Both the position numbers and the translations under genes were made by a program. The notes under the pieces were generated by a model. That model made no database searches, was not told the origin of the DNA, and worked only from the letters and a program-made list of their open reading frames with translations. Of a DNA stretch of 29,630 bases, positions 4,540 through 25,193 are shown one piece after another. Origin of the DNA: a virus; the IMG/VR virus record IMGVR_UViG_3300020204_000264, positions 1-29,630 of that record; one strand, given 5' to 3'. Position 1 is the stretch's first letter, and each line of letters starts with the position of its first letter.

Positions 4540-4547
4540 GATAAATA
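4540..4547 (+). promoter_or_regulatory. T4-type late promoter for gp4
   Basis: GATAAATA on the plus strand, separated by one base from the opposing TATAAATA. It is followed by exactly five bases and then the ATG at 4553, so the predicted transcript would begin at the initiation codon. Confidence 0.7.
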
Positions 4548-4552
4548 AGGAT

Positions 4553-4990
4553 ATGTTTCATAAAAGAAGATATAAACCAATGTTCCCAGAGAAGTATGAA
4601 GGGGATCCTACTAACATCATCATGAGGTCTAGTTGGGAAACCAGGTTTGCTGCATGGTGTGATAAAAACCCATCCATCATAAAATGGTGTTCAGAAGAGA
4701 CGGTCATCCCTTATAAATGCCCCACCGACAATAGGCTTCACAGGTACTTCATAGACTTTAAGATACGAGTTAAGACCAAAGAAAACCAAACAAAGACATA
4801 CCTCGTAGAGGTTAAACCTGCCAAACAGACCCAGCCACCAGTGTTTCCAGGCAAGAAGACAAGACACTACTTGATGGAGTCAGTCACCTTTATCAAGAAC
4901 CAAGCAAAATGGAAGGCAGCTACAGAATGGTGTAAGGATCGAGGGTATGAGTTCGTGATCATAACCGAGAATGAATTAGGCTTAAATTAG
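4553..4990 (+). CDS. 4: Head completion protein, T4 gp4-like
   Basis: 145 residues, close to T4 gp4 (150). The N-terminal pattern EKYEGDPTNIIMRSSWE, then AAWCDKNPSIIKWCSEE and the FIDFKI...YLVEVKPAKQ core, matches the gp4/gp50 family, which has a nuclease-like fold and is needed to finish the head before tail joining. The frame is open upstream to 4463, but that extension runs across both late promoters and into the divergent gp48 start. The chosen ATG aligns with the N-terminus of known gp4 proteins and lies five bases after GATAAATA. An alternative ATG at 4538 would fall inside the promoter and is unlikely. Confidence 0.88.
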   Translation: MFHKRRYKPMFPEKYEGDPTNIIMRSSWETRFAAWCDKNPSIIKWCSEETVIPYKCPTDNRLHRYFIDFKIRVKTKENQTKTYLVEVKPAKQTQPPVFPGKKTRHYLMESVTFIKNQAKWKAATEWCKDRGYEFVIITENELGLN

Positions 4991-4992
4991 CA

Positions 4993-5000
4993 TATAAATA
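4993..5000 (+). promoter_or_regulatory. T4-type late promoter, leaderless configuration
   Basis: Exact TATAAATA just after the gp4 stop, followed by five bases (ATCAA) and the ATG at 5006. With the usual T4 late spacing the transcript would start at that A. No Shine-Dalgarno sequence fits between promoter and gene. Confidence 0.75.
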
Positions 5001-5005
5001 ATCAA

Positions 5006-5590
5006 ATGGCTCAACAGATTAAAGACGTATTTGCTAACAATCAGTATAACTTAAAAGAAGCTGCTATCAAGTCTAAGGCATGGTTTCAACAACAAGCTTT
5101 GCTCCTTGGAAGACAGAACCTTACAGCTGCTAAAGTACTGAACTCTGATTCTGCAAGGGTTAAGAACACTATAGTTCCAGGATCGATGTATATGTTTATA
5201 TATGATCCTAAGGGTAAAGATGAACTGCCATACTATGATAAGTTCCCGTTAGTGTTACCTTTTAAGAAGGTTGCTGGTGGGTTTCTTGGCTTAAACTTAC
5301 ACTACTTACCTTATCAGCCTAGGATGATACTATTACAAAGGCTGATGGACTTTGTGTCTGACAGGAACATGAACGAAAACACTCGTATACGATATTCATG
5401 GAGCCTAATAAACGGAGTCAGTAAATTTAAATCAGCAGAACCATGTGTTAAGCATTATTTGATTGATCATGTTAAGACAACTTTTAGGAAGATAGATGCA
5501 AACGACTGGGCTACGGCGATCATGTTACCTGTAGAGCAGTTTGTTGGTGCAAATAAGAACAGGGTCTGGAAAGACTCAATGGGATACTAA
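5006..5590 (+). CDS. Conserved T4-like phage protein of unknown function, in the head/tail gene cluster
   Basis: 194 residues. The central region (DELPYYDKFPLVLPFKKV, GFLGLNLHYLPYQPRMILL) is a pattern I associate with conserved proteins of T4-like aquatic phages, but I cannot give a function. The first ~50 residues are Gln/Lys/Ala-rich and probably helical; the C-terminal half has RIRYSWSLINGV and a possible YLIDHVKTTFRKID helix. There is no signal peptide or membrane segment. It has its own late promoter directly upstream, and its stop overlaps the next ATG (TAATG), so it is likely a structural or assembly protein made late. DNA-end protection (gp2-like) and tail completion (gp3-like) were considered but are not supported by anything I can see. 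Confidence 0.6.
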   Translation: MAQQIKDVFANNQYNLKEAAIKSKAWFQQQALLLGRQNLTAAKVLNSDSARVKNTIVPGSMYMFIYDPKGKDELPYYDKFPLVLPFKKVAGGFLGLNLHYLPYQPRMILLQRLMDFVSDRNMNENTRIRYSWSLINGVSKFKSAEPCVKHYLIDHVKTTFRKIDANDWATAIMLPVEQFVGANKNRVWKDSMGY

Positions 5591-6282
5591 TGGCAACTTT
5601 AAACGAATTCATATCACAAGTAGCTGGCGAAGGGTTGATGCGAACATCTAGGTTCGCGGTATCTTTTGCTTTACCAAGCTCTCTATCTGCAGGACTATAT
5701 AGTGCAGATTTACGTAAGATACTATTATACTGTGATGCCATAAGCTTGCCTGGGTTAACATTAGAGACCACGGCAGCAAAGACTTTTGGCGAAGAGCGTC
5801 AGATGCCACACCAAAAACAATACGAGACCATAAACATGGGGTTCTATGTAGATAACTCGATGACAGTTAAAGAGCTGTTTGATAAGTGGATGAACGCTAT
5901 TCAAGACCCAGTAACTCGTAACTTTAATTACTATTGGACTTATGTGACAGACATAAACATTGATATATTTGATATAAAAGACAAGAGTCGTTATCAAGTA
6001 ACATTATATCATGCCTATCCAAAAGCTATAAACGCTATCCAAATGGACTATGCAAACAAAGACGTGATGAAGCTATCAGTAGCTATGGAGTACAAGTATT
6101 GGAGATCTTCACCAGCAACAAACACTACAGAATCATTCTTGAGTGATACTGTAGAGGTGCCAGACACATACTTTACCAACTTTGATCAGTATCAAACAGG
6201 ATATAATTCTTTTGAGAACTCTAGAAATTCATTATACTCTTCAGAAACAGCGTCTACAGGTCGCGGAACAATATTAACTTAA
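5590..6282 (+). CDS. 54: Tail-tube family protein, gp54/gp19-like (probably tube initiator gp54)
   Basis: 230 residues. The segments LLYCDAISLPG, QYETINMGFYVDN and VTLYHAYPKAINAIQMDY followed by KLSVAMEYKYWRSS form the tail-tube fold shared by T4 gp19, gp48 and gp54. In T4, gp54 is the initiator that sits on gp48 and starts gp19 polymerisation. The length (gp19 163, gp54 320) does not decide between them. The proximity to gp48 and baseplate genes favours gp54, while the simple single tube domain followed by a Ser/Thr/Asn-rich tail (~residues 180-230) leaves gp19 possible. The start codon overlaps the previous stop. Confidence 0.75.
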   Translation: MATLNEFISQVAGEGLMRTSRFAVSFALPSSLSAGLYSADLRKILLYCDAISLPGLTLETTAAKTFGEERQMPHQKQYETINMGFYVDNSMTVKELFDKWMNAIQDPVTRNFNYYWTYVTDINIDIFDIKDKSRYQVTLYHAYPKAINAIQMDYANKDVMKLSVAMEYKYWRSSPATNTTESFLSDTVEVPDTYFTNFDQYQTGYNSFENSRNSLYSSETASTGRGTILT

Positions 6283-6291
6283 GGACTTAAA

Positions 6292-6792
6292 ATGGAATAC
6301 AAAAAACAAGGTGTAAGCGATAATGCTTACCAACATTTACAAGAGGCGGATACAAACGGTGACGGCTATGTGAGTAGCCAAGAACTAGCTATGTATCTTG
6401 AGTTTAAGCGTAGAGAGCTTGAAGACCAAGATGCTCAACGTGATGCTATGCGTAAGATGACATGGTTTGCACTATGGGGTATGTTATTATATCCAGTGAC
6501 CATCGTTATCGCTTCATGGTTAGACGTAGACGATGCAGCAACTATCATTGGTAATATCGCTCCTACATACTTTGTAGCCATCTCAGCTTTGGTGGCAGCA
6601 TTCTTTGGTGCTAATGCATACTCAGCATCTAAAAAGAATGATGCACCACAACAGATGCAGATGCCAATCCCACAAAGACCAGCTCCATCAGCTCCACCAC
6701 CTCCTGCTCCACCAGCACCACCGAGTGTAGAGGATTATAGTGAGCCTGAAGTTAGTGCTGAACGTGCTACACCAAGAAGAAAGATAACTTAA
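6292..6792 (+). CDS. Membrane protein with one EF-hand calcium site and proline-rich tail
   Basis: 166 residues. Near residues 19-30, DTNGDGYVSSQE fits a canonical EF-hand loop with liganding residues at positions 1, 3, 5, 7, 9 and 12. Two hydrophobic segments follow (WFALWGMLLYPVTIVIASW at ~58-77, and APTYFVAISALVAAFFGAN at ~89-108), then a Pro/Ala-rich tail (PAPSAPPPPAPPAPPS). A Shine-Dalgarno AAGGA precedes the ATG. The gene lies between tail-tube and small-terminase genes, so it may be made with late morphogenesis proteins. I do not know a function. A calcium-sensing membrane protein or a lysis-timing protein is possible but speculative. One EF-hand alone is unusual, since they usually occur in pairs. 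Confidence 0.75.
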   Translation: MEYKKQGVSDNAYQHLQEADTNGDGYVSSQELAMYLEFKRRELEDQDAQRDAMRKMTWFALWGMLLYPVTIVIASWLDVDDAATIIGNIAPTYFVAISALVAAFFGANAYSASKKNDAPQQMQMPIPQRPAPSAPPPPAPPAPPSVEDYSEPEVSAERATPRRKIT

Positions 6793-6806
6793 CATAAAGG
6801 TATATC

Positions 6807-7238
6807 ATGAAGTCTGATGATAATTTGTCAAAGGTTTTTAACGTAGAGCCTCTCAAACCTGGGGAAACGATTAGTACTGGCGCTGAGATAGTGCCAGCTT
6901 CTACTAAGGTTGAAGAGAACGTAGATTACGACTATGATTCAGCTCGTAATAACCTACATAAGTTGTTGAATCAAGGCCAAGATGCATTGTATCATGCGTT
7001 AGAGATTGCAAAACAATCAGAACACCCAAGAGCTTTTGAAGTAGTAGGTAACTTAATGAAACAACTAGCTGACACTAACGAGCAGCTGTTAGCATTGAGT
7101 GAACGTAAGCAGAAGTTGGATTCGCCTAAGCAACAAGAAGGGCAGCCAAATAAACAAGTAACAAATAATAATGCGATTTTTGTGGGGTCAACCTCCGAAT
7201 TGAGCAAGATGATCAAAGATATGAATAAAGGAGAATAG
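6807..7238 (+). CDS. 16: Small terminase subunit, T4 gp16-like
   Basis: 143 residues (T4 gp16 has 164). The centre is a helical region (NLHKLLNQGQDALYHALEIA, PRAFEVVGNLMKQLADTNEQ) predicted to form the coiled-coil oligomerisation core, and the C-terminus has NNNAIFVGSTSELSKMIKD, a pattern typical of gp16 in cyanophage-type T4-like viruses. The small terminase forms a ring that recognises concatemeric DNA and stimulates the gp17 packaging motor. The large subunit is not in this window, so the usual 16-17 adjacency is broken here. AAAGG precedes the ATG. The acidic N-terminus is low complexity. Confidence 0.75.
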   Translation: MKSDDNLSKVFNVEPLKPGETISTGAEIVPASTKVEENVDYDYDSARNNLHKLLNQGQDALYHALEIAKQSEHPRAFEVVGNLMKQLADTNEQLLALSERKQKLDSPKQQEGQPNKQVTNNNAIFVGSTSELSKMIKDMNKGE

Positions 7239-7239
7239 T

Positions 7240-7953
7240 ATGGCACTACCTATGATGAAGGCACCGTTATATAATGTAACGGTGCCATCTACAAAGAGAG
7301 AGATACAGTTTAGACCGTTTTTGGTCAAAGAAGAGAAAGCATTACTCTTAGCACAGCAGTCTGAAGACCCTAAGGTAATGATCAACACATTAAAGAACGT
7401 CTTACAGTCTTGCATAGTCGGAGACGTAGACATAGATAACTTAGCTACGTTTGACTATGAATACTTATTTACACAGATCAGAGCAAAGTCTGTAGGCGAG
7501 ATAGTAGAGTTAATATTCCTTTGTGATACATGCGATGACGAAAAGGCAAAGGCTAACGTTAAGTTAGATATAACAAAGTTTAAGGTAGAGTTTCCAGAAG
7601 GACATGACACTAACATCCCTTTATTTGATGATGTTGGGATCATGATGAAAAACCCGTCGCTAGATACTTTAGATAAGTTAGAGAAGATACGAGACGGAGA
7701 TATAGACAGTATATTTGATGTAGTAGTTGATTGTATAGAATCAATATACAACACTGATGAGGTGTTTAATACTAAAGATCAAACAAGACAAGAAGTATTA
7801 GACTTCCTTGAAAACTTAACTCAAGAACAGTTTAAGAAGATTGAAAACTTTTTCTTAACTGTACCTAAGTTAAAGCAGACAGTAGAATATGATTGCCCAG
7901 TATGTAGCAAGCATCATGTTAAGTCTATGGAGGGCCTGGCAAGTTTTTTTTAG
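7240..7953 (+). CDS. 26: Baseplate hub assembly protein, T4 gp26-like (0-frame product)
   Basis: 237 residues (T4 gp26 208). MKAPLYNVTVPSTKREIQFR and PFLVKEEKALLLAQQSED, then FDYEYLFTQIRAKSVGE, match the gp26/gp51-type T4 baseplate protein family, common in T4-like phages. A Cys-rich part (CDTCDDE near residue 97 and CPVC near residue 223) may bind zinc. AAGGAG precedes the ATG. The gene ends AGT TTT TTT TAG in a run of eight T residues, and the neighbouring gp51-like frame continues in the -1 register without a start codon of its own. The most likely outcome is two products, this one and a longer -1 frameshift fusion. The arrangement, ahead of a tape-measure gene, is the same as the G/GT tail-assembly chaperones of lambda-type phages. 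Confidence 0.85.
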   Translation: MALPMMKAPLYNVTVPSTKREIQFRPFLVKEEKALLLAQQSEDPKVMINTLKNVLQSCIVGDVDIDNLATFDYEYLFTQIRAKSVGEIVELIFLCDTCDDEKAKANVKLDITKFKVEFPEGHDTNIPLFDDVGIMMKNPSLDTLDKLEKIRDGDIDSIFDVVVDCIESIYNTDEVFNTKDQTRQEVLDFLENLTQEQFKKIENFFLTVPKLKQTVEYDCPVCSKHHVKSMEGLASFF

Positions 7954-8041
7954 TTAATCTCAGTCACGAGAGCTTGTCCAACTATTATAAGATGAACTTC
8001 GCTCTCATGCAATACCACAAGTATTCGTTGACTGAGATTGA
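7944..8041 (+). promoter_or_regulatory. Candidate -1 programmed frameshift signal (slippery T run plus stem)
   Basis: The heptamer T TTT TTT in the gp26 frame (7944-7950) sits directly before the stop TAG, and tRNA slippage by -1 re-pairs perfectly. Five bases downstream begins a perfect 11-base inverted repeat, AATCTCAGTCA (7956-7966) with TGACTGAGATT (8029-8039), extendable by a U-G and an A-U pair. Inside it is a second stem, GAGAGC (7968-7973) with GCTCTC (8001-8006). Slippery site, short spacer and downstream structure are the three parts of a -1 frameshift element. The efficiency is unknown. Confidence 0.75.
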
Positions 8042-8129
8042 AGAGATGTTCCCATTTGAACGCGAGATCTATGTTGCTATGTTGATTAAGTATTTAGAAG
8101 AAGAAAAACAAAGACTAGAGAGTAGGTAA
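7950..8129 (+). CDS. 51: gp51-like C-terminal extension of gp26, reached by -1 frameshift
   Basis: This frame encodes about 59 residues, LVNLSHESLSNYYKMNFALM followed by HKYSLTEIEEMFPFEREIYV and an acidic/Lys helix. It resembles the short gp51-type hub-assembly proteins of T4-like marine phages, which are much shorter than T4 gp51 (249). There is no ATG, GTG or TTG before the conserved LVNLSHESL, and the first ATG is 16 codons further in. Translation by -1 slippage at the T run gives a 296-residue gp26-gp51 protein. The stop overlaps the tape-measure ATG (TAATG). An independent internal start at the later ATG is possible but would remove conserved residues. Confidence 0.75.
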   Translation, partial: LVNLSHESLSNYYKMNFALMQYHKYSLTEIEEMFPFEREIYVAMLIKYLEEEKQRLESR

Positions 8130-10060: not shown

Positions 10061-10084
10061 AAAAGGGACCTTTCGGTCCCTTTT
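10061..10084. terminator. Bidirectional intrinsic terminator
   Basis: AAAAGGGACC, loop TTTC, GGTCCCTTTT: a perfect 10-base inverted repeat with A/T tails on both sides, placed between the convergent tape-measure (plus) and gp32 (minus) genes. It can stop transcription in both directions. Confidence 0.92.
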
Positions 10085-11933: not shown

Positions 11934-12187
11934 AGCATACTTATATAATGATTAGTTAACTTAAGGCTATGCTTAATATTCTCATAAGCTTTGTACTGGT
12001 CGTTATATGCTTTCCAAACTGGATCTGATTTATTAGCAGAGTTCATCTGCTCAGAGAATAGTTCTAAGTACTCGTCAAAGAATATGTCTACTTCTTTTAA
12101 GTTCTTTTCTAGTTCACCTTTGACTCTTATTAGTTCTTGCTTGTTGCCTGTTTGATAACTGTGATTGATATGTTGTGCCACGTTCAT
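11930..12187 (-). CDS. Small conserved phage protein at the head of the 33-59-32 operon
   Basis: 85 residues, charged and almost entirely helical (GNKQELIRVKGELEKNLKEV, then FFDEYLELFSEQ). There are no cysteines, membrane segments or known motif. AAGGA stands upstream of the ATG, with a clear promoter (TGTACA, 17 bases, TATAAT) further up. The stop overlaps the gp33 start. In T4 another small DNA-binding protein gene lies in this neighbourhood, but the better DsbA match in this window is at 19884-20135, so I leave this one without a function. Confidence 0.75.
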   Translation of the reverse strand: MNVAQHINHSYQTGNKQELIRVKGELEKNLKEVDIFFDEYLELFSEQMNSANKSDPVWKAYNDQYKAYENIKHSLKLTNHYISML

Positions 12188-12212
12188 TTCATTTTCCTTG
12201 ATTTAAAATTAT

Positions 12213-12241
12213 ATTATATCATAATAAACATTTAATGTACA
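12213..12241 (-). promoter_or_regulatory. Promoter of the 85-aa/gp33/gp59/gp32 operon
   Basis: -35 TGTACA (12236-12241), 17-base spacer beginning TTAA, -10 TATAAT (12213-12218). The leader is about 20 bases and contains AAGGA. Same class as seven other minus-strand promoters here. Confidence 0.8.
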
Positions 12242-12924: not shown

Positions 12925-13452
12925 TTAAATCTTTCTGTAAAAAATATGATTCCCAATAACAGCTGTTACTGTTACGTTTTTCCATTCAGGTTTAACAGCT
13001 TTTGTATGAAAAAACAATGCACCTTTTGTTAAGTCGTACATCTCTCTATAGTTTAAGTACGTATGTAGAGCTATCTGTCTAGCATCTTCAAACGCTTGTT
13101 TCTCGTGTTTAGTGTATCTATATGATTGTGCTTTGATCCTTTTATAATCATCACAGTACCAACTAAACTGGCATACTTCCTCAAACTTTTGAGTCATGGT
13201 AGCACATATAGATCTTGGATAATTTCCAGAATATACGCGGTTTAGTGTGACTAGTGCTACTGCTACCTTACCTTGTTTAGGTTCGTATCCAGCTTCATAA
13301 TAGATATTTTGTGCTAGACATTCTACTTGTTGTTTTTCCACCTTAGTTAATTTTTTAGGTGGTTCTATCTTTTGTCGTGTTTGTTCTGTATGTGCAATTG
13401 TAAAATTACACAGGTAACACAATGCCAAAATGACAGCAAAAGTTCTCTTCAT
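12925..13452 (-). CDS. Exported cell-wall hydrolase, SleB/Hydrolase_2 family
   Basis: 175 residues. Residues 1-20 form a signal peptide (MKRTFAVILALCYLCNFTIA). The domain that follows has ECLAQNIYYEAGYEPKQGKV, ALVTLNRVYSGNYP and EVCQFSWYCDD, the pattern of SleB-type lytic transglycosylase/amidase domains, with the Glu of YYEA the likely catalytic residue. It would act on peptidoglycan in the periplasm. AAGGAG precedes the ATG and a TTTACT/TATAAT promoter lies upstream. Since the GH19 endolysin appears to be the main lysin, this exported enzyme may help weaken the wall early or assist DNA entry or superinfection control; these roles are guesses. Confidence 0.85.
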   Translation of the reverse strand: MKRTFAVILALCYLCNFTIAHTEQTRQKIEPPKKLTKVEKQQVECLAQNIYYEAGYEPKQGKVAVALVTLNRVYSGNYPRSICATMTQKFEEVCQFSWYCDDYKRIKAQSYRYTKHEKQAFEDARQIALHTYLNYREMYDLTKGALFFHTKAVKPEWKNVTVTAVIGNHIFYRKI

Positions 13453-13487
13453 GGGGATATTCTCCTTGCGATTCGTTACTTGATTAT

Positions 13488-13516
13488 ATTATACTCTAGT
13501 TGCTAATTAAAGTAAA
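13488..13516 (-). promoter_or_regulatory. Promoter upstream of the SleB-like gene
   Basis: -35 TTTACT (13511-13516), 17-base spacer starting TTAATTA, -10 TATAAT (13488-13493). The leader is about 30 bases and contains AAGGAG. The -35 overlaps the last codons of the RecB-like gene. Confidence 0.78.
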
Positions 13517-14415: not shown

Positions 14416-14926
14416 TTTCGTTCCTTTCAATGAAATTAAACTTTACTTCTGGATGATCTTTAATCATCTTATTAAAATTAGTTCTCCAATCTGGAGACAT
14501 GTTCATACCGTCTGAACTTAAGAAGTTTCTTGTATAACTCTTACTAGCAGTGTTACTGCGTATGTCATTAGTGATAAACGCGTCTGCTCCGTATATATCT
14601 ATGTCTTTGTAACCAAGCTCTACTGCCTTCAAGCATGCTATGTTTCCGCTTGATAGACCTCTACGGGTCTTTTGTATTATACCTACAACATCAAATAATG
14701 TTGCAGCTCCAACTTCTTTAACGTAATCCACTACATTTTGACTAAAGTATACTTTACAATCTATGAGTGATATATTTCTGATCAATACCTTAACAAGCTG
14801 TGGATCGAGTATCACAGTACAGTCAACCTTTGTCCAAGGGATATTGCATCCTATGCGGTATGCATATTCTTTATTGGGATCATAGGCTGACCGACTGGGA
14901 CCGTTACATAGTACTGCTACCTTCAT
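14399..14926 (-). CDS. Glycosyltransferase-like protein (GT29/DUF115-type Rossmann fold)
   Basis: 175 residues. The N-terminal MKVAVLCNGPSRS (strand plus Gly-rich loop), LSSGNIACLKAVELGYKDID and IYGADAF resemble the small phage proteins of the sialyltransferase/MptE-like group, which bind a nucleotide substrate with such loops. The C-terminal part is short (DWRTNFNKMIKDHPEVKFNF). A role in modifying surface sugars or phage DNA is possible but not shown. The upstream promoter is odd: its -10 TATAAT overlaps the ATG, so full-length translation may depend on read-through from the endolysin operon. Confidence 0.6.
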   Translation of the reverse strand: MKVAVLCNGPSRSAYDPNKEYAYRIGCNIPWTKVDCTVILDPQLVKVLIRNISLIDCKVYFSQNVVDYVKEVGAATLFDVVGIIQKTRRGLSSGNIACLKAVELGYKDIDIYGADAFITNDIRSNTASKSYTRNFLSSDGMNMSPDWRTNFNKMIKDHPEVKFNFIERNENVKEL

Positions 14927-14953
14927 TATATATCAAGGTCTAATTAAAGTACA
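14925..14953 (-). promoter_or_regulatory. Promoter whose -10 overlaps a start codon
   Basis: -35 TGTACT (14948-14953), 17-base spacer beginning TTAATTA, -10 TATAAT (14925-14930). The last two bases of the -10 are the first two of the ATG at 14926. A normal start would fall inside the gene. Confidence 0.6.
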
Positions 14954-15804: not shown

Positions 15805-16050
15805 TTATAAGTGGTTACTAAATTTATTTAGTTGAGAACCTGCAGTCTTTTCGTGAATACGTTGTAGTACTTCTTTAAACCCTTGATCTGGTCTACGAAC
15901 ACCTAACCTGACTGGATCTATGAGTGCATTCATACCCAACATTGGTTCAATGTTTGGATTTTCTCTTAAGTATTCCTCTTTAGCAGATATACTCATAAAC
16001 TTCTCGAACACCTCACCAGTGTCCTTGTTTCTAAAATCATACAATGGCAT
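15805..16050 (-). CDS. FmdB-like conserved phage protein lacking the zinc-ribbon cysteines
   Basis: 81 residues. MPLYDFRNKDTGEVFEKFMS followed by ISAKEEYLRENPNIE is the N-terminal pattern of proteins often annotated as FmdB-family regulators in T4-like cyanophages. True FmdB proteins have Cys pairs for zinc; this one has none, so the label is structural at best. C-terminal QGFKEVLQRIHEKTAGSQLN is also shared with the phage group. The gene has its own late promoter (TATAAATA at 16066-16073) with AGGAG between it and the ATG, and leads towards the putative lysis genes. Confidence 0.7.
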   Translation of the reverse strand: MPLYDFRNKDTGEVFEKFMSISAKEEYLRENPNIEPMLGMNALIDPVRLGVRRPDQGFKEVLQRIHEKTAGSQLNKFSNHL

Positions 16051-16615
16051 AATTATCTCCTGTTTTATTTATAAACTCAGGGACTGACCTTTTCTTCCAT
16101 GAGAACATCCGTTGCTTTTCTCCATTGTAATAGTTACGATATGACTGTATAGAGTCCTCAGATACCTTGTATTGGTCAGGCATTGCTGGGGTCGGTTCGG
16201 TAAATGATAGATCAGGTATATTGATCGGTGGCATTGATAGTATATTTACAAGCCCATCAGCTTCGCACTTATGCACCTTACCATATCGATAGGTGTATTC
16301 GTTACATAATGCATCTAACAATTCATGTAACCACATATAGTTTGCTTTTGAATGCCGAGCCCATACTGCAGATGGATGGTTGACATGTGTTGCTTGGTAT
16401 ATCACATCGTTCATGTCTATTAAAAAATCTTCAGGTAGTATCCAACGTTTGACGTTTCGACCAGTCTTGGTTTTACCCATGATTTGCTTACCATCCAATA
16501 TACGATGTGCAGTTGATAATAACTGACATGACTCGAGGATCATCTTGACTACATGCTTGTCAACATGCATCTCAGCTGCTTTTACTGGATCTTTATGCAG
16601 ATAAAAGATGTTCAT
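16037..16615 (-). CDS. Conserved T4-like phage protein, possibly DNA-repair (Pyr_excise-like)
   Basis: 192 residues. MNIFYLHKDPVKAAEMHVDK, HVVKMILESCQLLSTAHR, THVNHPSAVWARHSKANYMW and NEYTYRYGKVHKCE form a pattern found widely in phages and some bacteria. I recall relatives labelled as pyrimidine-dimer glycosylase-type (denV-like) proteins, but the link is uncertain. The C-terminus has MPDQYKVSEDSIQSYRNYY and a Trp/Lys-rich WKKRSVPEFI. The ATG overlaps the end of the 61-aa gene, and the end overlaps the FmdB-like start by 14 bases. A profile search would decide whether the DNA-glycosylase label is right. Confidence 0.65.
   Translation of the reverse strand: MNIFYLHKDPVKAAEMHVDKHVVKMILESCQLLSTAHRILDGKQIMGKTKTGRNVKRWILPEDFLIDMNDVIYQATHVNHPSAVWARHSKANYMWLHELLDALCNEYTYRYGKVHKCEADGLVNILSMPPINIPDLSFTEPTPAMPDQYKVSEDSIQSYRNYYNGEKQRMFSWKKRSVPEFINKTGDNYAIV
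16066..16073 (-). promoter_or_regulatory. T4-type late promoter of the lysis cassette
   Basis: Exact TATAAATA on the minus strand, within the end of the 192-aa gene. It is followed by 15 bases containing AGGAG and the ATG at 16050, leaving a ~10-base leader with a ribosome-binding site. Confidence 0.75.
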
Positions 16616-16778: not shown

Positions 16779-17262
16779 GATTTAATAGCCACCTTTTCAT
16801 CTTAAGTGCACCTGATTGTTCTAATGCATAAGCTTCTATTTCCCATGGTTGCTTACGATAGATATAACGATGTGCTTCACCTTCATACGTTAAGTATTTA
16901 ATCTTAACGTTATACTTCAATTGGCCAGATATAAACTGTCTGGCATGTACTAACTCATGTGATATGGTACGACATAAGTTAGCAGTGTTCTTTGAGTTGA
17001 GCTCAATCAATAAGTCGTCATCGTACTGTTGATCGGTAGTGCCAAGCATATCCTCAGCTTTGAAGTTCTTAAACAAGAAGTCATACTTGATACCTTTGGA
17101 CTTCTTAGGATATTTTTTGGATATGTCTTTGATAAGGGTCTTTTCAGCTGCAATGCATTGCTTGACGTACGTGGTTAACCTACGTGTAGATAACTCATAC
17201 ACAGCTGACGTACAGCTGACTGAAATAGTGTCTGACTTATAGAGTAATATATGCCTTATCAT
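16738..17262 (-). CDS. Zinc metallopeptidase-like protein (HExxH)
   Basis: 174 residues from the ATG at 17262. The zinc motif HELVH is at ~102-106 in TISHELVHARQFISGQ, and PWEIEAY about 25 residues later supplies a probable third ligand Glu. This arrangement is typical of small SprT/wss-type phage proteins. The frame is open to an ATG at 17307, but that would run across the promoter; the -10 TATACT ends seven bases before the ATG at 17262, which therefore is the likely start with almost no leader. The substrate is unknown. Confidence 0.75.
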   Translation of the reverse strand: MIRHILLYKSDTISVSCTSAVYELSTRRLTTYVKQCIAAEKTLIKDISKKYPKKSKGIKYDFLFKNFKAEDMLGTTDQQYDDDLLIELNSKNTANLCRTISHELVHARQFISGQLKYNVKIKYLTYEGEAHRYIYRKQPWEIEAYALEQSGALKMKRWLLNHAHFNPKLVTPAI

Positions 17263-17269
17263 ACTATAC

Positions 17270-17298
17270 AGTATACCACATCCCCTAATAAAAGTACA
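17270..17298 (-). promoter_or_regulatory. Promoter of the metallopeptidase operon, near-leaderless
   Basis: -35 TGTACT (17293-17298), 17-base spacer, -10 TATACT (17270-17275), then seven bases and the ATG at 17262. The predicted start is at or one base before the ATG. The stretch up to 17391 otherwise holds only a possible CATAAATA at 17379-17386. Confidence 0.72.
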
Positions 17299-17391
17299 TG
17301 TTAACATAAGGTGTTGATTATAAAGACAATTTTAAACTCACCTGGATTCATAGTTTATCCAGCATACAGCTTACTATCTATTTATGTAAAT

Positions 17392-18710: not shown

Positions 18711-19847
18711 TTAAAATGCTCCTAATAATATGGTCTCTTCATTGATACGACCATTTGGTGCAGTTGGTTTTGTAGTCAAAGCTTTTACTGCTGTGTTAAG
18801 GTTACGTTTACCAATAGATAAGTCTTTAAAGAACTTCTCAGGGTTTCTTAGTGTCCATGACCATGACTTAGCGATACTATAGTTGATGATCGTTGTACCT
18901 TTGACTGATAGTGTATCAGAGTCATCAGCCATATAAGATACAAGCTTACGATACTTAATGTTGTATACCCATAACTCTTTAGCACCAACGATATCAGCAG
19001 GGTTGATAGACTTAAGGTTTAATAGATCATGCTTAAACATATACTTAAGTTTCTTAACGATGACTGCTGGTGGTTTTGCTTTGGTGACTCTTGGCTTCTT
19101 AACAGTAACTTGGTGTTGAGCACAATCATCTACGATAGATTGGATTGCTGCTCTAAACTTCTTGAGTTCAGTCCTAGTAAGGAATGAATAGCCTTCTACA
19201 AGCTGTTCGTCTTTACCTTCAAGCGCTTCATCGATCTCGTTTACGTTAAGCTTATAGTAATCACCGATACGCTTAGCGACCATGCCTGATATATTATTGG
19301 ATAAGAGGTGTGCTTTAGTATTAAAGTCCCATGTCTTATTTTTAATAAAGTTATCGATAGCATAGTCAATGTCTTCAGAGGCCGCACGAGCTGCATCTGC
19401 TACGCGCTGATCTATAGAGATGACTGGTGCTTTAGGTCTATCATCAATGACTTCGTCTGTGTTGTACTTGTGATAGATAGCTACGACCTTTTGTAACATA
19501 TCATCATGATTTATAGGTGATATGAAGCCACCGTTCTCCATGATCATACATAATGAACCCATGTTGATGAGCTCATAGTCAGGCACCTTATCAGATAAGA
19601 CTTTATAGATATCTTTGAACGATACGTCCTTCATTGACAGTTTACCGTCCCATTCTTTAGCATAGCCTTTGATATATTTCCTAAGTGCATTAGCTCGTGT
19701 AGAGTTTTCAGCATTAGTATTATAGTAACCAAGAGCTGCCATCAATGTTGACTTATAGTTTTCTTGCGTAACGATTGGAGCACCAGAGCCTTTGCCTTGT
19801 GCGAGGGCTTTCTCTTTCCATTCTTTGGTTGGTTTTTTAGTTTTCAT
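18711..19847 (-). CDS. Large conserved phage protein of unknown function
   Basis: 378 residues, basic at both ends (MKTKKPTKEWKEKALAQGKG; GKRNLNTAVKALTT). The central part is helical and rich in charged residues (RVADAARAASEDIDYAIDNF). A Lys/Pro/Val-rich linker (~VKKPRVTKAKPPAVIVKK) precedes a C-terminal domain with LWVYNIKYRKLVSYM. I associate similar proteins with T4-like marine phages but know no function. A nucleic-acid-binding role is suggested only by the charge and by its place between DsbA-like and RNase H genes. The ATG lies six bases after a TATACT -10, so the transcript is predicted leaderless. Confidence 0.75.
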   Translation of the reverse strand: MKTKKPTKEWKEKALAQGKGSGAPIVTQENYKSTLMAALGYYNTNAENSTRANALRKYIKGYAKEWDGKLSMKDVSFKDIYKVLSDKVPDYELINMGSLCMIMENGGFISPINHDDMLQKVVAIYHKYNTDEVIDDRPKAPVISIDQRVADAARAASEDIDYAIDNFIKNKTWDFNTKAHLLSNNISGMVAKRIGDYYKLNVNEIDEALEGKDEQLVEGYSFLTRTELKKFRAAIQSIVDDCAQHQVTVKKPRVTKAKPPAVIVKKLKYMFKHDLLNLKSINPADIVGAKELWVYNIKYRKLVSYMADDSDTLSVKGTTIINYSIAKSWSWTLRNPEKFFKDLSIGKRNLNTAVKALTTKPTAPNGRINEETILLGAF

Positions 19848-19853
19848 GATGAC

Positions 19854-19882
19854 AGTATACCATAGTTATGGATTAATGTACA
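19854..19882 (-). promoter_or_regulatory. Promoter of the 378-aa/rnh operon, leaderless configuration
   Basis: -35 TGTACA (19877-19882), 17-base spacer beginning TTAAT, -10 TATACT (19854-19859), six bases (GTCATC) and the ATG at 19847. A start seven bases after the -10 would coincide with the ATG. No Shine-Dalgarno sequence. Confidence 0.8.
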
Positions 19883-19883
19883 A

Positions 19884-20135: not shown

Positions 20136-20389
20136 TATATACCTTTCACTGTTTTAATTGAGTCCCAACGGAATGATCTCCATTCCTGCTTATCTAAATC
20201 AAACACACGTAGTGCGTCATCACTAAATTTTGTATTCTCTGTCTTTGGCTTTTTGTCTTCAGGTATTAATGACTCTGCTAAAGTACAAAGCATGTCGCGA
20301 TTACTGCCATCCTTTTTAGTAAAGGATACTGTGATGCTTTTATCTTTGATTGAATTTAAGATTAACTGACGAACATTCATATCTTGCAT
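20135..20389 (-). CDS. Small SH3-barrel-like phage protein
   Basis: 84 residues from the ATG at 20389. SITVSFTKKDGSNRDMLCTL, and near the end LRVFDLDKQEWRSFRWDSIK, match a small family common in T4-like phages and usually described as SH3 beta-barrel fold. The longer open frame to 20467 runs through the tRNA gene and is rejected. A second in-frame ATG at 20380 is possible. The promoter -10 TATAAT ends nine bases before the ATG, leaving a leader of only a few bases. The function is unknown. Confidence 0.72.
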   Translation of the reverse strand: MQDMNVRQLILNSIKDKSITVSFTKKDGSNRDMLCTLAESLIPEDKKPKTENTKFSDDALRVFDLDKQEWRSFRWDSIKTVKGI

Positions 20390-20398
20390 AATAACTCC

Positions 20399-20427
20399 AT
20401 TATAATATAAAGATGATTTAATGTAAA
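20399..20427 (-). promoter_or_regulatory. Promoter between tRNA and SH3-like gene
   Basis: -35 TTTACA (20422-20427), 17-base spacer beginning TTAAAT, -10 TATAAT (20399-20404). The ATG at 20389 is nine bases further. The -35 begins seven bases after the CCA end of the tRNA. Confidence 0.72.
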
Positions 20428-20433
20428 ATAATT

Positions 20434-20510
20434 TGGTGGGCCCACATGGACTCGAACCATGGACCAAAGGATTATGAGTCCTCTGCTCTAACCAACTGAG
20501 CTATAGGCCC
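20434..20510 (-). tRNA. tRNA-Ile2 (anticodon CAU, CCA encoded)
   Basis: A full cloverleaf can be drawn: acceptor GGGCCTA with TGGGCCC, D-arm GCTC/GAGC, anticodon stem GAGGA/TCCTT with loop CTCATAA, T-arm CATGG-TTCGAGT-CCATG, discriminator A and encoded CCA. CAU could mean Met, but acceptor pairs C4-G69 and C5-G68, the ACTCATAAT loop and the following TTGGTC resemble tRNA-Ile2, whose C34 is changed to lysidine by host TilS so that it reads AUA. AUA codons are frequent in this A/T-rich phage, which would explain its value. Confidence 0.88.
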
Positions 20511-20667: not shown

Positions 20668-20827
20668 ATTCGTCGTAGCCAGGACCATTGAAGTGGGGAT
20701 CAGCCATAGCGTTTAATAACTGGCGTTCGTCTTCTATGAGGTCATCATAGTCGATTGGCTCTGGTACCGTATACATACGACCCCTTTTAATGTCCTTGAC
20801 ACTAACTACTGTATTTTTATTTTCCAT
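20666..20827 (-). CDS. 53-residue hypothetical protein
   Basis: 53 residues, MENKNTVVSVKDIKRGRMYT followed by an acidic middle (DYDDLIEDERQLLNAMADPH) and FNGPGYDE at the end. No family recognised. Support for being real: a promoter with the same spacing as the others, TGTACA-17-TAGAAT, whose -10 ends six bases before the ATG, and a stop directly at the start of the structured RNA region. No Shine-Dalgarno sequence, consistent with a leaderless message. Confidence 0.6.
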   Translation of the reverse strand: MENKNTVVSVKDIKRGRMYTVPEPIDYDDLIEDERQLLNAMADPHFNGPGYDE

Positions 20828-20833
20828 AATATA

Positions 20834-20862
20834 ATTCTACCAAATAAATGAATTAATGTACA
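20834..20862 (-). promoter_or_regulatory. Promoter of the 53-aa gene, leaderless configuration
   Basis: -35 TGTACA (20857-20862), 17-base spacer beginning TTAATT, -10 TAGAAT (20834-20839), six bases and the ATG at 20827. It would also transcribe the structured region and the tRNA. Confidence 0.7.
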
Positions 20863-20865
20863 TGC

Positions 20866-21234: not shown

Positions 21235-21395
21235 TATATAATCTCCTTGATAAATCTTGCTTTAAGTAAACTGTCAATGATACCGTTATCGTTATCTTGC
21301 GCTGTTAACATCCAGCCTTCCAAAGTATTACCAGAGAAGGCAAACTGAGGGTTAACAATACACTTATAATAGTGCCCATTCACTTTGAAGGTCAT
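21234..21395 (-). CDS. 53-residue hypothetical protein, middle of operon
   Basis: 53 residues (MTFKVNGHYYKCIVNPQFAF, NTLEGWMLTAQDNDNGIIDS), probably a small beta-sheet protein. The start overlaps the stop of the 90-aa gene and its stop overlaps the next start, so the coding nature is supported by the tight arrangement. No family recognised. Confidence 0.65.
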   Translation of the reverse strand: MTFKVNGHYYKCIVNPQFAFSGNTLEGWMLTAQDNDNGIIDSLLKARFIKEII

Positions 21396-21667
21396 TAAGC
21401 AGCCTTTCTTGATGGATCCATAACATCAAACATGATTGCCTTAGCACAGTTGATGTACTGACGAGCTTGATTAGCTGTCTTAGGACTTACCCAACCTTCA
21501 TCATTGAATTCTGGATCCATGATTTGTTGAGCGTCGCTTAATAAGCCAGCTGCAAACATCATCTCAGTACCTGGAAAAGCTTGTTGTTTTACCATTAGAT
21601 TTAATTGAGCTTTTGTCATGCCATAAGCTTGAATTTCCCAAGCTAATTGTTCTGTATTTGTCTTCAT
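21395..21667 (-). CDS. 90-residue hypothetical phage protein
   Basis: 90 residues, helical. MKTNTEQLAWEIQAYGMTKA, then MVKQQAFPGTEMMFAAGLLS, and ANQARQYINCAKAIMFDVMD. The pattern resembles small conserved proteins of T4-like phages but I know no function. GGAGAG lies ahead of the ATG and a strong promoter further upstream gives a normal leader of ~27 bases, in contrast to the leaderless neighbours. Confidence 0.7.
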   Translation of the reverse strand: MKTNTEQLAWEIQAYGMTKAQLNLMVKQQAFPGTEMMFAAGLLSDAQQIMDPEFNDEGWVSPKTANQARQYINCAKAIMFDVMDPSRKAA

Positions 21668-21700
21668 AGTTTTCTCTCCGTTATTAATTAGTATAGAACC

Positions 21701-21729
21701 ATTATACAGAAAAGGCTAATTAATGTACA
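21701..21729 (-). promoter_or_regulatory. Promoter of the 90/53/122-aa operon
   Basis: -35 TGTACA (21724-21729), 17-base spacer beginning TTAATTA, -10 TATAAT (21701-21706), ordinary leader with GGAGAG. A short inverted repeat TAGTC-TG-GACTA at 21730-21741 lies directly beyond the -35 and might be an operator. Confidence 0.82.
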
Positions 21730-21788
21730 TAGTCTGGACTAAAATAAATTATCTATATAAATCAATAACTTATAAACCTATGATTTTA

Positions 21789-22505
21789 TTAGTAATTTTC
21801 AGCTAAGAATTCAGCTTCGGGGATGCGTGTATGAGTGTTCTGGGAGCCTAAAACCACGACTGATCTCTGGCCCTTATCTGTGGACATAAGCATCGCCAGG
21901 CAGCCTCCGGCAGGCCTTGTATAGCCTGTCTTGGAGATCAGTATGTCCTGACGTTTACCTATGAGAGGGTTAGTGTTCTTAAAGACCCAGAAACGCTTCT
22001 TGGTCTTAATCTTGATCTTTGCCTGTTGAGATGCGTTGACTAATTCTGGATATTTTGCAGCTTCCTGGACTAACTGTGTTAGCTCCATGGCTGTGGATTT
22101 GTTACGTCTATCAAGACCAGTAGCATCATAGACGATGGTGTTGAGTAGGTTAAGCTTAAATAACAAGTGATTCATGTCAGCTATACACCTGTCATATCCA
22201 CCTACATATAACTGACATAATAAGTCTGCAGTTTGGTTATTTGACTTTACTATGGCCATGTCTATCAGCTGATGGCGTGTTATCATACCAAAAGCTTTAG
22301 TCTTGACTGGAGCTTCTATGTTCTCTCCGCTGTTTAATATGGTCATCGCTGTGACTAGTTTTGTGATAGATGCTATTGACCTGACTTCTGCAATATTTTG
22401 CCCCGCGATCACCTTTCCATCTTCATCTGTCACCACCCATGAGTTAGCAGTTATGTCTTGAGCATAGCAGTTGAATGCTAATAAAAGTAAAATTAAGAAC
22501 TTCAT
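21789..22505 (-). CDS. Exported D,D-endopeptidase/carboxypeptidase, PBP7-like (S11 family)
   Basis: 238 residues from the ATG at 22505, which overlaps the cyclase stop (TAATG); an upstream in-frame start at 22538 would lack the signal peptide at its N-terminus. Residues 1-15 are a signal peptide (MKFLILLLLAFNCYA). All three penicillin-binding motifs are intact: S46-I-T-K49, S88-N-N90 and K192-T-G194. The protein is shorter than E. coli PBP7 (PbpG, ~310) and has no C-terminal anchor, so it should be a soluble periplasmic enzyme that trims or cuts peptide cross-links. Presence in a phage, in one operon with an adenylate cyclase, is unusual. Roles could be lysis support, wall loosening for export of fibres, or changed wall stiffness. 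Confidence 0.9.
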   Translation of the reverse strand: MKFLILLLLAFNCYAQDITANSWVVTDEDGKVIAGQNIAEVRSIASITKLVTAMTILNSGENIEAPVKTKAFGMITRHQLIDMAIVKSNNQTADLLCQLYVGGYDRCIADMNHLLFKLNLLNTIVYDATGLDRRNKSTAMELTQLVQEAAKYPELVNASQQAKIKIKTKKRFWVFKNTNPLIGKRQDILISKTGYTRPAGGCLAMLMSTDKGQRSVVVLGSQNTHTRIPEAEFLAENY

Positions 22506-24514
22506 TACTTGCTTGTGGCTCGATATACACCGTCCCACTCAGCAGGGAGACCTTCGTCCATTCGTTCTATCATCTTGTGATAGTAGTCTTTGATAGTAAC
22601 GTTATTATCATCGATGAGTTCTTGTGCCCATTCTGTAGCACGTTTCCAATTACCGCGATAGTATTCTTTTAGATACTCTTCATGTTTATGTTTAATAGTC
22701 TCGCCTATCGTGTATACCTTAACTCCTTCGGTCTTGCCCTTAACAGCGATCGTATCCATCTCTACGACTGAATAAACTTCTTTAGCATACTCTGCGGTCT
22801 TTGTACCTAATACGATACGTACACCATAGTTCTTTGATTGTCCTTCTAAACGGGAAGCAAGATTGACCGCATCACCAAGACAAGTGTAATCAAAACGCTG
22901 GCTGCTACCCATATTCCCAACAACCACGTCGCCGCTGTTAATACCAAGTCCCATACCGAACGCTGGTATATTTTCTTTAGCGATCTCTTCATTGAATTTA
23001 TCCAAATCATTTAACATCTCCAATCCAGTCTTAACTGCATTTAATGCATGATCCTTATCATCTAAAGGAGCATTCCAAAAAGCCATCTGAGCATCACCTA
23101 TATACTTATCAAGTGTACCATTATTTTCAATGATCTTTGCTGTCATGGCTGTCATGTATCTGTTCATGATCTTAGTCAGACCTTGAACGTCTTTACCATA
23201 ATGTTCTGAGATAGTCGTGAAGCCACGAACGTCTGTAAACATGATTGATAATTCTCTAGTCTCACCACCAAGCTTCAATAGCTCTGGGTTCTTTTGTAAC
23301 TTTTCAACCATTGCTGGCGATAAGTATGTACCAAATTGTTTCTTGATCTGTAGCTTTTGGTTTAATTCAGAAATGAACTTAACGGTGTATGCATGACCAT
23401 AGACAACAGACAAGCTAATAATAGGATAAATGCCGTCCAACAGAATACCTTGATGGGCGAACACGTAGCGAGAAGCGTAATATATAGAACCAATAATACT
23501 AATGATAGGAAGAATAGCATATTTCCACCTCGTTAAAAAGATTATGATGATTGATAATACAACTATAGCAAGCATCTCAGCACCATCTGCCCAATCAGGA
23601 CGAGATATGTTGGCGCCAGATGTTAGTGTATCTAAAACTGAAGCTTGTACATAATGAGGATAGACGGCTCCTCGTGGGGTTGCAACGGGATTGTTAAGTC
23701 CGCGTGCCGATAACCCAACGATGACGATACCTCCATCGAATGACTTGGGTAATCCCACAAGACTGTGTTCAATCGGCGTGGAACTCCAATCGACCCATAT
23801 TCTACCCATTGGGTCTGTGACGACCTTGGCGAAGCTAGGTATTCTGACAGCTTCAATCCCGTTTGCGTTTGACTTGACTTGGAAACTTGGGTCTCCAACT
23901 GCAACACGCATTGTTTCAAGACTGATACTTGGGTACAATTGGCCATCACTTGCGACGACCATAGGGATACGACGAACAACACCATCAATTTCAGGTAATA
24001 CATTTACGACTCCTATTCCAGCAGCTTTGCTGTTAAATGATGATATATTGGCTTGAATGCCCGGATAGTTTACTGCATGATCAGAAGCTTTGCCTCCGAT
24101 TTCTGATACTCCCGGTCTAAATGCACCAGGTTTTTGTTTGTCTGATGTTGCGACTTGTGGTAATACTACAGGATGCCTAGTAAGGGTATCAGCCAGTCCA
24201 GCATCTTTTCCAAACCTATCACTATCAGGCATAAACAGATTAAAGACAACAAGACCAGCCCCACGGCTGTAAAGATCTTCGATGATATTTGCATATTGGG
24301 TCCTTGGAAATGGAAATTGCCCAAGGTGTTCTATAGACTTATCATCTATGTTTACGACATGGACTTGTTTTGATTGTACTACAGGTTTACTTGTGATCAG
24401 CGTGTCAAAGTATCTAAGACGAACTGACTCTACAAATGATGGATCTGATACTCTAATGCCTACTAAAACTAATAGGGTGACTAGTGCAAACCATGGGCTA
24501 AGTAATTTTTTCAT
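22505..24514 (-). CDS. Membrane adenylate cyclase with CHASE2 sensor domain (class III)
   Basis: 669 residues. One N-terminal membrane helix (~8-21), an extracytoplasmic CHASE2 domain (~30-310: VRLRYFDTLI, FPFPRTQYANIIEDLYSRGA, ISSFNSKAAGIGVVN), three membrane helices (~313-382) and a class III cyclase domain (~415-605). The catalytic set is complete: metal ligands D428 and D474, substrate residues K470 and D548, transition-state residues N551 and R555; Lys/Asp predicts ATP use and cAMP as product. A helical tail follows. The ATG lies five bases after AATAAATA, so expression late in infection is expected. In bacteria CHASE2 cyclases often sit near FecR genes, and a FecR gene is present about 4 kb away here. 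Confidence 0.95.
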   Translation of the reverse strand: MKKLLSPWFALVTLLVLVGIRVSDPSFVESVRLRYFDTLITSKPVVQSKQVHVVNIDDKSIEHLGQFPFPRTQYANIIEDLYSRGAGLVVFNLFMPDSDRFGKDAGLADTLTRHPVVLPQVATSDKQKPGAFRPGVSEIGGKASDHAVNYPGIQANISSFNSKAAGIGVVNVLPEIDGVVRRIPMVVASDGQLYPSISLETMRVAVGDPSFQVKSNANGIEAVRIPSFAKVVTDPMGRIWVDWSSTPIEHSLVGLPKSFDGGIVIVGLSARGLNNPVATPRGAVYPHYVQASVLDTLTSGANISRPDWADGAEMLAIVVLSIIIIFLTRWKYAILPIISIIGSIYYASRYVFAHQGILLDGIYPIISLSVVYGHAYTVKFISELNQKLQIKKQFGTYLSPAMVEKLQKNPELLKLGGETRELSIMFTDVRGFTTISEHYGKDVQGLTKIMNRYMTAMTAKIIENNGTLDKYIGDAQMAFWNAPLDDKDHALNAVKTGLEMLNDLDKFNEEIAKENIPAFGMGLGINSGDVVVGNMGSSQRFDYTCLGDAVNLASRLEGQSKNYGVRIVLGTKTAEYAKEVYSVVEMDTIAVKGKTEGVKVYTIGETIKHKHEEYLKEYYRGNWKRATEWAQELIDDNNVTIKDYYHKMIERMDEGLPAEWDGVYRATSK

Positions 24515-24519
24515 ATGTT

Positions 24520-24527
24520 TATTTATT
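24520..24527 (-). promoter_or_regulatory. T4-type late promoter of the cyclase, leaderless configuration
   Basis: AATAAATA on the minus strand, overlapping the stop of the upstream gene, then exactly five bases and the ATG at 24514. Same spacing as the plus-strand sites before gp4 and the 5006 gene. Confidence 0.7.
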
Positions 24528-25158
24528 CGTATGTTACTGTATCGCTATCACCTAGTCTCCATTTAGGATTAGTCTCTACCACATACTTCTTGGTGCAGAC
24601 TTTAAAATCAGGGAATAACATCTCTTTTGGATTACTTGCTGCATCAAAGAATATACACCTGTTATTCGGCTGAGCAGCATACTGTCCATTGTTTAGTTGT
24701 ATAAAGTTAAAACTCTTATGATCTTCTGGAACTTCACTGTAACTCGTATCTAGTATGTTTAAGTCTGGAGCTGAATTATCTACCGTAAACATATAGTCAC
24801 CATGATGAAACTGTTTATCTTTAGCATACACCTTACAGCTTAAGTTCCTTAAGAATGCTTTTTGTATGACTGCTATGTCATAACTAAAACAATCCCATAT
24901 CTGTAAAGTGTCTAGTGATAAGAACTTTTCAGGTTCTAGATCAGTCGTTCTACTTACATAAGCATGCAACGGCAACTTATCATATAAAGCTCCGTATCTT
25001 GGGAAGTATGACTCTATCCTAAATGCTTGACTACGAAGGCTCTTGATACTAACCCATATACATGACTCATATTCGCCATGACCAGATTTAAAATCATATA
25101 AGAACTCCTTACGAACATAGCAATGTACTGGAGGCAAGTTAGCTACAAGGAAACTCAT
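24523..25158 (-). CDS. Conserved T4-like phage protein of unknown function
   Basis: 211 residues. MSFLVANLPPVHCYVRKEFL, HGEYESCIWVSIKSLRSQAF, YFPRYGALYDKLPLHAYVSR, LQIWDCFSYDIAVIQKAF and FNFIQLNNGQYAAQPNNRC form a strongly conserved pattern that I know from cyanophage-type T4-like viruses, without function. No signal peptide. It has its own promoter with the ATG six bases after the -10. It is a core phage gene set between cargo genes, which indicates that the surrounding envelope genes were inserted around, or carried with, the phage backbone. Confidence 0.8.
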   Translation of the reverse strand: MSFLVANLPPVHCYVRKEFLYDFKSGHGEYESCIWVSIKSLRSQAFRIESYFPRYGALYDKLPLHAYVSRTTDLEPEKFLSLDTLQIWDCFSYDIAVIQKAFLRNLSCKVYAKDKQFHHGDYMFTVDNSAPDLNILDTSYSEVPEDHKSFNFIQLNNGQYAAQPNNRCIFFDAASNPKEMLFPDFKVCTKKYVVETNPKWRLGDSDTVTYE

Positions 25159-25164
25159 ATTGAC

Positions 25165-25193
25165 ATTATACTCCTATAGTTAATTAAAGTAAA
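25165..25193 (-). promoter_or_regulatory. Promoter of the 211-aa gene, leaderless configuration
   Basis: -35 TTTACT (25188-25193), 17-base spacer beginning TTAATTA, -10 TATAAT (25165-25170), six bases (GTCAAT) and the ATG at 25158. Nearly identical in layout to the promoter at 19854-19882. Confidence 0.8.

Follow-up and report, generated by a model that had tools for sequence, protein, structure and literature searches.

The window analysed here is the 29,630-base IMG/VR virus record IMGVR_UViG_3300020204_000264, an AT-rich stretch (GC content ~34-41% per kb) in which promoters of two classes end only a few nucleotides (nt) before the ATG of several genes, that is, so close to it that the mRNAs of these genes are probably leaderless. 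Judged by its sequence, the window represents part of a T4-like phage genome and is kin of Methylophilales phage Melnitz and pelagiphage HTVC008M, laboratory phages of OM43 and SAR11 bacteria. These two are the nearest isolates for its gp32-like protein (50% and 49%, respectively), and both are classified under Kyanoviridae. It encodes gp4 (head closure), gp2 (DNA end protector) and the baseplate tube cap. We infer solely from the kinship of its phage relatives that the host may be a methylotroph or a SAR11 bacterium.

Promoters close to start codons in the window

The close-set promoters and the genes behind them are the following:

4540..4552, plus strand: T4-type late promoter GATAAATA (4540-4547) with a 5-nt spacer; ATG at 4553, the A of which is the predicted +1
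4553..4990, plus strand: gp4-like head closure gene (phrog_218), predicted leaderless
4993..5005, plus strand: late promoter TATAAATA (4993-5000) with a 5-nt spacer; ATG at 5006, gp2-like gene
5006..5590, plus strand: gp2-like DNA end protector gene (phrog_429, E 5e-52), predicted leaderless
17263..17298, minus strand: early-type promoter TGTACT-17-TATACT (17298-17270) with a 7-nt spacer; ATG at 17262
18711..19847, minus strand: phrog_11903 gene, function unknown, predicted leaderless
19848..19882, minus strand: early-type promoter TGTACA-17-TATACT (19882-19854) with a 6-nt spacer; ATG at 19847
20828..20862, minus strand: early-type promoter TGTACA-17-TAGAAT (20862-20834) with a 6-nt spacer; ATG at 20827, open reading frame (ORF) of 53 amino acids (aa)
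22505..24514, minus strand: CHASE2 adenylate/guanylate cyclase gene (PF05226, PF00211), predicted leaderless
24515..24527, minus strand: late promoter AATAAATA (24527-24520) with a 5-nt spacer; ATG at 24514, cyclase
25159..25193, minus strand: early-type promoter TTTACT-17-TATAAT (25193-25165) with a 6-nt spacer; ATG at 25158, phrog_3704 gene
26184..26927, minus strand: metallophosphoesterase gene (plcP-like, PF00149), probably leaderless
26928..26939, minus strand: late promoter GATAAATA (26939-26932) with a 4-nt spacer; ATG at 26927

The preliminary description of this DNA, made from the sequence before the present analysis, had claimed four late spacings (5, 5, 5 and 4 nt) and four of the other class (6, 6, 6 and 7 nt), and all of them are indeed present. 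ATAAATA occurs ten times in the window, and four of these sites lie 4-6 nt before a gene's ATG, compared to 0.22 expected from composition-matched permuted motifs. The motif ahead of the cyclase gene even accommodates the stop codon of the upstream gene. The early-type sites carry a -35-like box (TGTACW or TTTACW) 17 nt ahead of the -10, and had to be detected via a specific extended -35 motif because a generic promoter scan of the window was uninformative by count (72 found vs. 70.6 expected). We considered, and rejected, an identity of these sites with T4 middle (MotA) promoters; the MotA box TGCTTTA stands upstream of a -10 without a -35, and here a -35-like box is present at 17 nt. The ORF behind the 17262 site has its first ATG at 17307 (minus strand), which precedes the -35 of the conserved promoter, and hence 17262 rather than 17307 is very likely the real start of this gene. 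A further early-type promoter, absent from the preliminary description, lies at 20389-20427 (minus strand), 9 nt before the ATG at 20389; it is flanked by tRNA-Met (20434-20510) on one side and an 84-aa gene on the other, and the leader is predicted to measure just ~3 nt.

Promoter spacing across related and distant phages

For the comparison across genomes, the slices of each phage were joined, ORFs were chosen by a simple longest-first rule, and each ATAAATA was paired with the first ATG of a chosen gene within 60 nt, the control being permuted motifs of the same composition. The lineage set comprised the window, G001, G002, G004, HTVC008M and Melnitz; T4, Syn9 and S-PM2 served as outgroups. 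Late pairs at 4-6 nt numbered 4/7 in the window, 5/30 in G001, 8/19 in G002, 2/8 in G004, 8/21 in HTVC008M and 3/27 in Melnitz (0.18-0.52 expected in each), every one of those in the two isolates being at exactly 5 nt; HTVC008M has 45 ATAAATA sites overall, and in eight cases a chosen gene begins exactly 5 nt downstream. Pooled over the six genomes, 30 of 112 late pairs fall at 4-6 nt, whereas permuted motifs would give 1.82 (Poisson 4e-26). These 30 sites come down to some 18 distinct genes, as several of them, gp4, gp2 and gp25 included, appear in more than one genome. In contrast, none of the outgroup pairs does (T4 0/30, Syn9 0/17, S-PM2 0/29; 0/76 in total; Fisher 5e-8), their late sites being nearly all at least 12 nt ahead of the ATG.

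The same picture emerged from the 109 nearest loci, closely related contigs included. Among 232 distinct late sites in these loci, 66 lie at 4-6 nt, 7 at 7-8, none at 9-11 and 73 at 12-59 nt, with 1 overlapping and 85 without a start; among 99 distinct early-type sites, 40 lie at 5-7 nt (29 at exactly 6), 2 at 9, none at 10-18 and 29 at 19-55 nt, with 12 overlapping as TATAATG and 16 without a start. The early-type pattern in the window, G001 and G002 matches this pooled picture. Promoter-ATG spacing is thus bimodal in both classes. Random spacing across the whole genome, named in the preliminary description as an outcome that would speak against its proposal, was not found in the window or in the five further lineage contigs and genomes. 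The late and early peaks are one base apart (5 vs. 6 nt), as the geometry of the late element vs. that of sigma70 requires. When TATAAT was profiled without any -35 motif, sites at 5-7 nt numbered 1 vs. 0.08 expected in the window, 6 vs. 1.16 in G001 and 3 vs. 1.01 in G002, and G003 has five at exactly 6 nt.

Shine-Dalgarno sequences, start codons and annotated starts

The two spacing modes differ in their Shine-Dalgarno (SD) sequences as well. An SD-like 4-mer precedes 2/30 close-set vs. 56/77 leadered late genes in the same six genomes, and 4/17 close-set vs. 14/16 leadered early-type genes. The early-type figures are limited to ATG starts; the 14/16 retain a leadered row, G001 26505, that was entered 1 nt off (codon printed TGA), and G002 42449 was entered by eye, the ORF picker having given no start there. 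Less clear leaderless cases in the close-set early list are G001 43629 (GGTTCT after the -10), window 20427 and G001 19647 (9 nt each) and G002 21354 (8 nt), and a uniform-spacing binomial for this set is a rough yardstick only. All 30 close-set late genes start with ATG, and no GTG or TTG start occurs at 4-6 nt of the late sites of the six lineage genomes. The absence of an SD, claimed previously for all eight close-set sites of the window, stands for most of them but fails literally at two: AGGA ends 1 nt before the ATG at 4553, too close to function, and GGAG lies 12 nt upstream of the ATG at 25158, yet 5' of the -10 and hence outside the predicted transcript.

Annotated coding sequence (CDS) starts agree with the promoter-adjacent ATGs. 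HTVC008M has nine exact NATAAATA-N5-ATG sites, and all nine fall on annotated CDS starts, namely those of a 2OG oxygenase, CsgF, tape measure, DNA end protector, tube cap, two baseplate wedge proteins, a transcriptional regulator and a hypothetical protein; the gp2 ortholog, for instance, is annotated from the ATG at 5 nt from its late promoter. For Melnitz, three of the four exact sites do so (the cyclase, the gene after gp4, i.e., the gp2 position, and a hypothetical gene), the ATG of the fourth, at 129255, not being annotated as a start.

Conservation gene by gene

At gp2, a late promoter stands 4-5 nt before the ATG in 27/36 relatives' loci, and the other nine comprise one with the upstream region missing, one with a variant CTAAATA at 5 nt and seven with a protein <45% identical. 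For gp4, where 78 of 80 loci (two lack the gene start; 44 distinct) gave a spacing, it is 4-8 nt in 27 of the 28 distinct relatives at least 80% identical, 21 of which have 4-6 nt. The 19847 gene has its early-type promoter at exactly 6 nt in all 25 orthologs shown (25 of 36 loci), while the letters of the spacer differ. The -35 box of the 17262 gene is retained in 17/18 distinct orthologs, with the -10 ending 4-7 nt from the ATG, and in G001, G002 and HTVC008M the gp25-type wedge genes have close-set promoters too. The promoter at 20827 recurred in a single, near-identical locus (L120).

The cyclase gene is particularly informative. The window, L120 and L121 have a late promoter 5 nt ahead of it, as does Melnitz; L122, L123, L143 and L144 have an early-type promoter at 6 nt, and L160 and L170 have ATAAATA at 7 nt (42 of 80 loci shown). 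That two promoter classes converge on the same predicted +1 of one gene argues that the transcript start itself may be the target of selection.

Leadered genes, exceptions and neighbouring genes

Other promoters of the window stand farther from their genes, and one overlaps its ATG:

4506..4538, minus strand: late promoter TATAAATA (4538-4531), divergent, with a 25-nt spacer containing AGGA; ATG at 4505, baseplate tube cap gene
12188..12241, minus strand: early-type promoter, 25-nt spacer, AAGGA leader; ATG at 12187
13453..13516, minus strand: early-type promoter, 35-nt spacer, AAGGAG leader; ATG at 13452
14925..14953, minus strand: early-type promoter, the TATAAT of which overlaps the ATG at 14926 (TATAATG)
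16051..16073, minus strand: late promoter, 15-nt spacer, AGGAG leader; ATG at 16050
21668..21729, minus strand: early-type promoter, 33-nt spacer, GGAG leader; ATG at 21667

The tube cap promoter (4538-4531) and the overlapping site at 14926 are absent from the preliminary description, which correctly attributed an SD to the longer-leader genes at 21667, 13452, 12187 and 16050; an AGGA/GGAG-type SD is seen in each of these leaders. Leadered early genes of G001 and of near loci have a common leader (TATAAT, then GGTTNTAT, later GGAGAGA), which suggests a copied promoter-leader cassette. The ortholog comparison for the 14926 and 25158 genes covered, in two sets, 32 of 80 and 27 of 29 loci before duplicate removal. 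At the 14926-type gene, the TATAAT in L478-L503 overlaps the ATG or, in relatives, lies just 3' of it, and three relatives (L497, L499 and L500) have ordinary 5-nt leaderless spacing instead. TATAAT directly abutting an ATG (0 nt) occurs six times in HTVC008M and four times in Melnitz genome-wide.

The block at 22505-29543 is auxiliary and comprises the CHASE2 cyclase, the phrog_3704 gene, a GT4 glycosyltransferase, the metallophosphoesterase, a long secreted-looking repeat protein and a FecR protein. We take the glycosyltransferase and the metallophosphoesterase to be a plcP-agt-like lipid remodelling pair. Scanning cellular genomes gave no relative of the phosphoesterase and one 32% Elusimicrobia match to the cyclase, and neither protein scan names the host. 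An Rfam scan of the window returned a single tRNA and nothing else.

How the transcripts may start and be translated

It is very probable, in our view, that these promoters are placed so that transcription begins at the A of the ATG, or no more than about three bases away from it, and yields leaderless mRNAs, given the ATG starts, the scarcity of SD sequences, the conservation in distant relatives and the agreeing annotated CDS starts. The -10 box of sigma70 promoters ends at -7. In the early class, sigma70 promoters share an invariant extended -35 (TGTACWTTAATTA or TTTACWTTAATTA), followed by 17 nt and TATAAT, and the +1 would lie six or seven bases on. In the late class, a gp55-type ATAAATA element would direct a +1 five bases downstream; T4 late TATAAATA occupies -13 to -6 of the transcript start according to the part of the source available (PMC1524935), so a 5-nt spacer would place the +1 on the A of the ATG. 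Translation would then proceed from the 5'-terminal AUG, to which the complete 70S ribosome would bind directly, as in other bacteria (reviewed in PMC9031893, available in part). Other genes in the same phages have spacers of 12-50 nt and an SD.

Several observations weigh against this reading, or against its uniformity. The predicted +1 is drawn from T4 and sigma70 geometry, the gene calls are simple ORF picks, and orthologs were counted more than once. G003, a 162-kb relative, has 0/9 late pairs at 4-6 nt. The TATAAT-only signal is weaker, and there is no clear excess at 5-7 nt in HTVC008M (2 vs. 1.86 expected) or Melnitz (2 vs. 1.05), and hence the early-class result holds for the window's clade and not for these two isolates. 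The arrangement at gp4 is found in 0/16 distinct relatives <80% identical, and a minority of gp4 orthologs have 7, 8 or 12 nt. Most other cyclase loci shown have neither promoter class close to the ATG, a close late promoter at plcP (4-5 nt) occurs in only 3/22 orthologs shown (22 of 80 loci; L144 has it at 5 nt), and the 25158 arrangement is present in near-identical loci and not in more distant orthologs. Moreover, good-looking promoters overlap the ATG at 14926 and that of plcP in L213/L215, which a leaderless start cannot explain. The preliminary claim of a leaderless mode, cyclase and plcP included, is therefore upheld overall by spacing, SD content, conservation and annotated starts, but unevenly by gene: a leaderless start is strongly suggested for gp4, gp2, the 19847 gene and the 17262 gene, moderately for the cyclase, and weakly for plcP, 25158 and 20827.

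The likely benefit of such leaderless starts would be compactness, with promoter and translation start fitting within ~15 nt between tandem genes. Among close-set late genes, 24/30 have a same-strand upstream neighbour at a median gap of 15 nt, compared to 62/74 leadered late genes with a median of 33.5 nt (Mann-Whitney P 0.006). These short gaps also lend themselves to another explanation, namely that the genes are mainly read from longer polycistronic transcripts without an SD, by coupling or 70S scanning, the close promoters being minor or redundant. Longer upstream transcripts could indeed supply some genes. As a general account, we consider this improbable, since the exact spacing is kept while the sequence of the gap varies, both promoter classes are placed on one cyclase start, and 6/30 close-set late genes are divergent, with no adjoining same-strand cistron.

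Slightly less probable still is that the promoters are real but the adjacent ATG is unused, with translation of the RNAs beginning at an in-frame start farther on, or the RNAs serving the following gene. For instance, gp4 has a second in-frame ATG ~30 nt downstream, and the promoter overlapping the ATG at 14926 cannot serve that ATG. However, the window gp4 aligns with cyanophage gp4 from residue 1, as does the phrog_3704 profile with the product of the 25158 gene; 12 of the 13 exact sites of HTVC008M and Melnitz are on annotated CDS starts; and sharp peaks at 5 and 6 nt would not be expected under this reading. A chance origin of ATAAATA and TATAAT near ATGs in AT-rich DNA such as the window's has almost no probability, as permuted motifs of equal composition account for so few of the observed pairs and the similarly AT-rich T4 genome has none at 4-6 nt.

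Returning to leaderless starts at close-set promoters, dosage is a possible further benefit, an impression from the few genes identified. The late element precedes gp4, gp2, gp25, tube cap, head scaffold and tail tube genes (window, G001 and G002); among the leadered late genes of G001 are those for tail tube, scaffold and head proteins, and the capsid, sheath and prohead-core genes of Melnitz have AAGGAG leaders. Close-set late genes, by comparison, mainly encode minor components or auxiliary functions. A more elaborate proposal, which we consider rather unlikely, is that promoter placement sets two translation channels, an SD-led one serving the virion proteins made in large amounts and a leaderless one serving minor morphogenesis, auxiliary and regulatory genes, with the leaderless channel staying open or being favoured when infection alters initiation, e.g., via phage-coded ribosome-modifying enzymes such as RimK-like proteins, which are annotated in Melnitz.

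Comparison with known systems

Leaderless mRNAs have been described before, as have T4 late promoters and individual phage genes without a leader. Literature searches (open-access library) on leaderless genes in T4-like phages, cyanophages or pelagiphages listed no paper with a description of this arrangement. The accessible parts of the Melnitz and pelagimyophage papers hold no discussion of leaderless genes (the sole "leaderless" there in the Melnitz paper is in a reference title); the former lists 15 late promoters, and the latter reports that late-promoter prediction was unsuccessful (PMC7029224), a failure that close spacing may help explain. The accessible part of the AR9 paper remarks that leaderless transcripts are common in phages.

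The late element itself is that of the T4-type late promoters (gp55/gp33/gp45; TATAAATA or NATAAATA), the same 8 bp being used in this lineage, and the annotation of Melnitz includes a late sigma factor and a sliding clamp. The difference lies in placement, with a large minority of sites at 4-6 nt in this lineage vs. none of the 76 pairs of T4, Syn9 and S-PM2. Melnitz and HTVC008M share with the window late sites at exactly 5 nt and gp2, and Melnitz also shares the cyclase.

The early-type sites resemble the "TA-led" genes of bacteria, where leaderless genes are recognised by a TANNNT ~12 bp ahead of the start codon (PMC3160421, available in part); in both, the first T of the -10 is ~12 nt from the ATG (12 nt with the 6-nt spacer here) and there is no SD. 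The TA-led definition, however, concerns the host's own sigma70 -10 boxes in the genomes of cells (PMC3160421), whereas here a phage late-sigma element is placed likewise, in a T4-like phage and beside leadered genes. If the leaderless reading is true, leaderless mRNAs, described as rare in enterobacteria (PMC9031893), would be a regular expression mode of both temporal classes in phages related to those of SAR11 bacteria and methylotrophs, T4 late genes being without them by the spacing test. The arrangement also predicts exact 5' ends and start codons missed by the ORF finder, which gave 17307 instead of 17262.

In lambda, a single lysogeny gene is leaderless. The predicted mRNAs here would be like that of lambda cI, which is named among leaderless phage mRNAs in the accessible part of PMC9031893, in having the AUG at or near the 5' end and in 70S initiation, as predicted from sequence. 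Compared to lambda's single gene, however, the arrangement described here involves many genes, structural as well as auxiliary, and two promoter classes.

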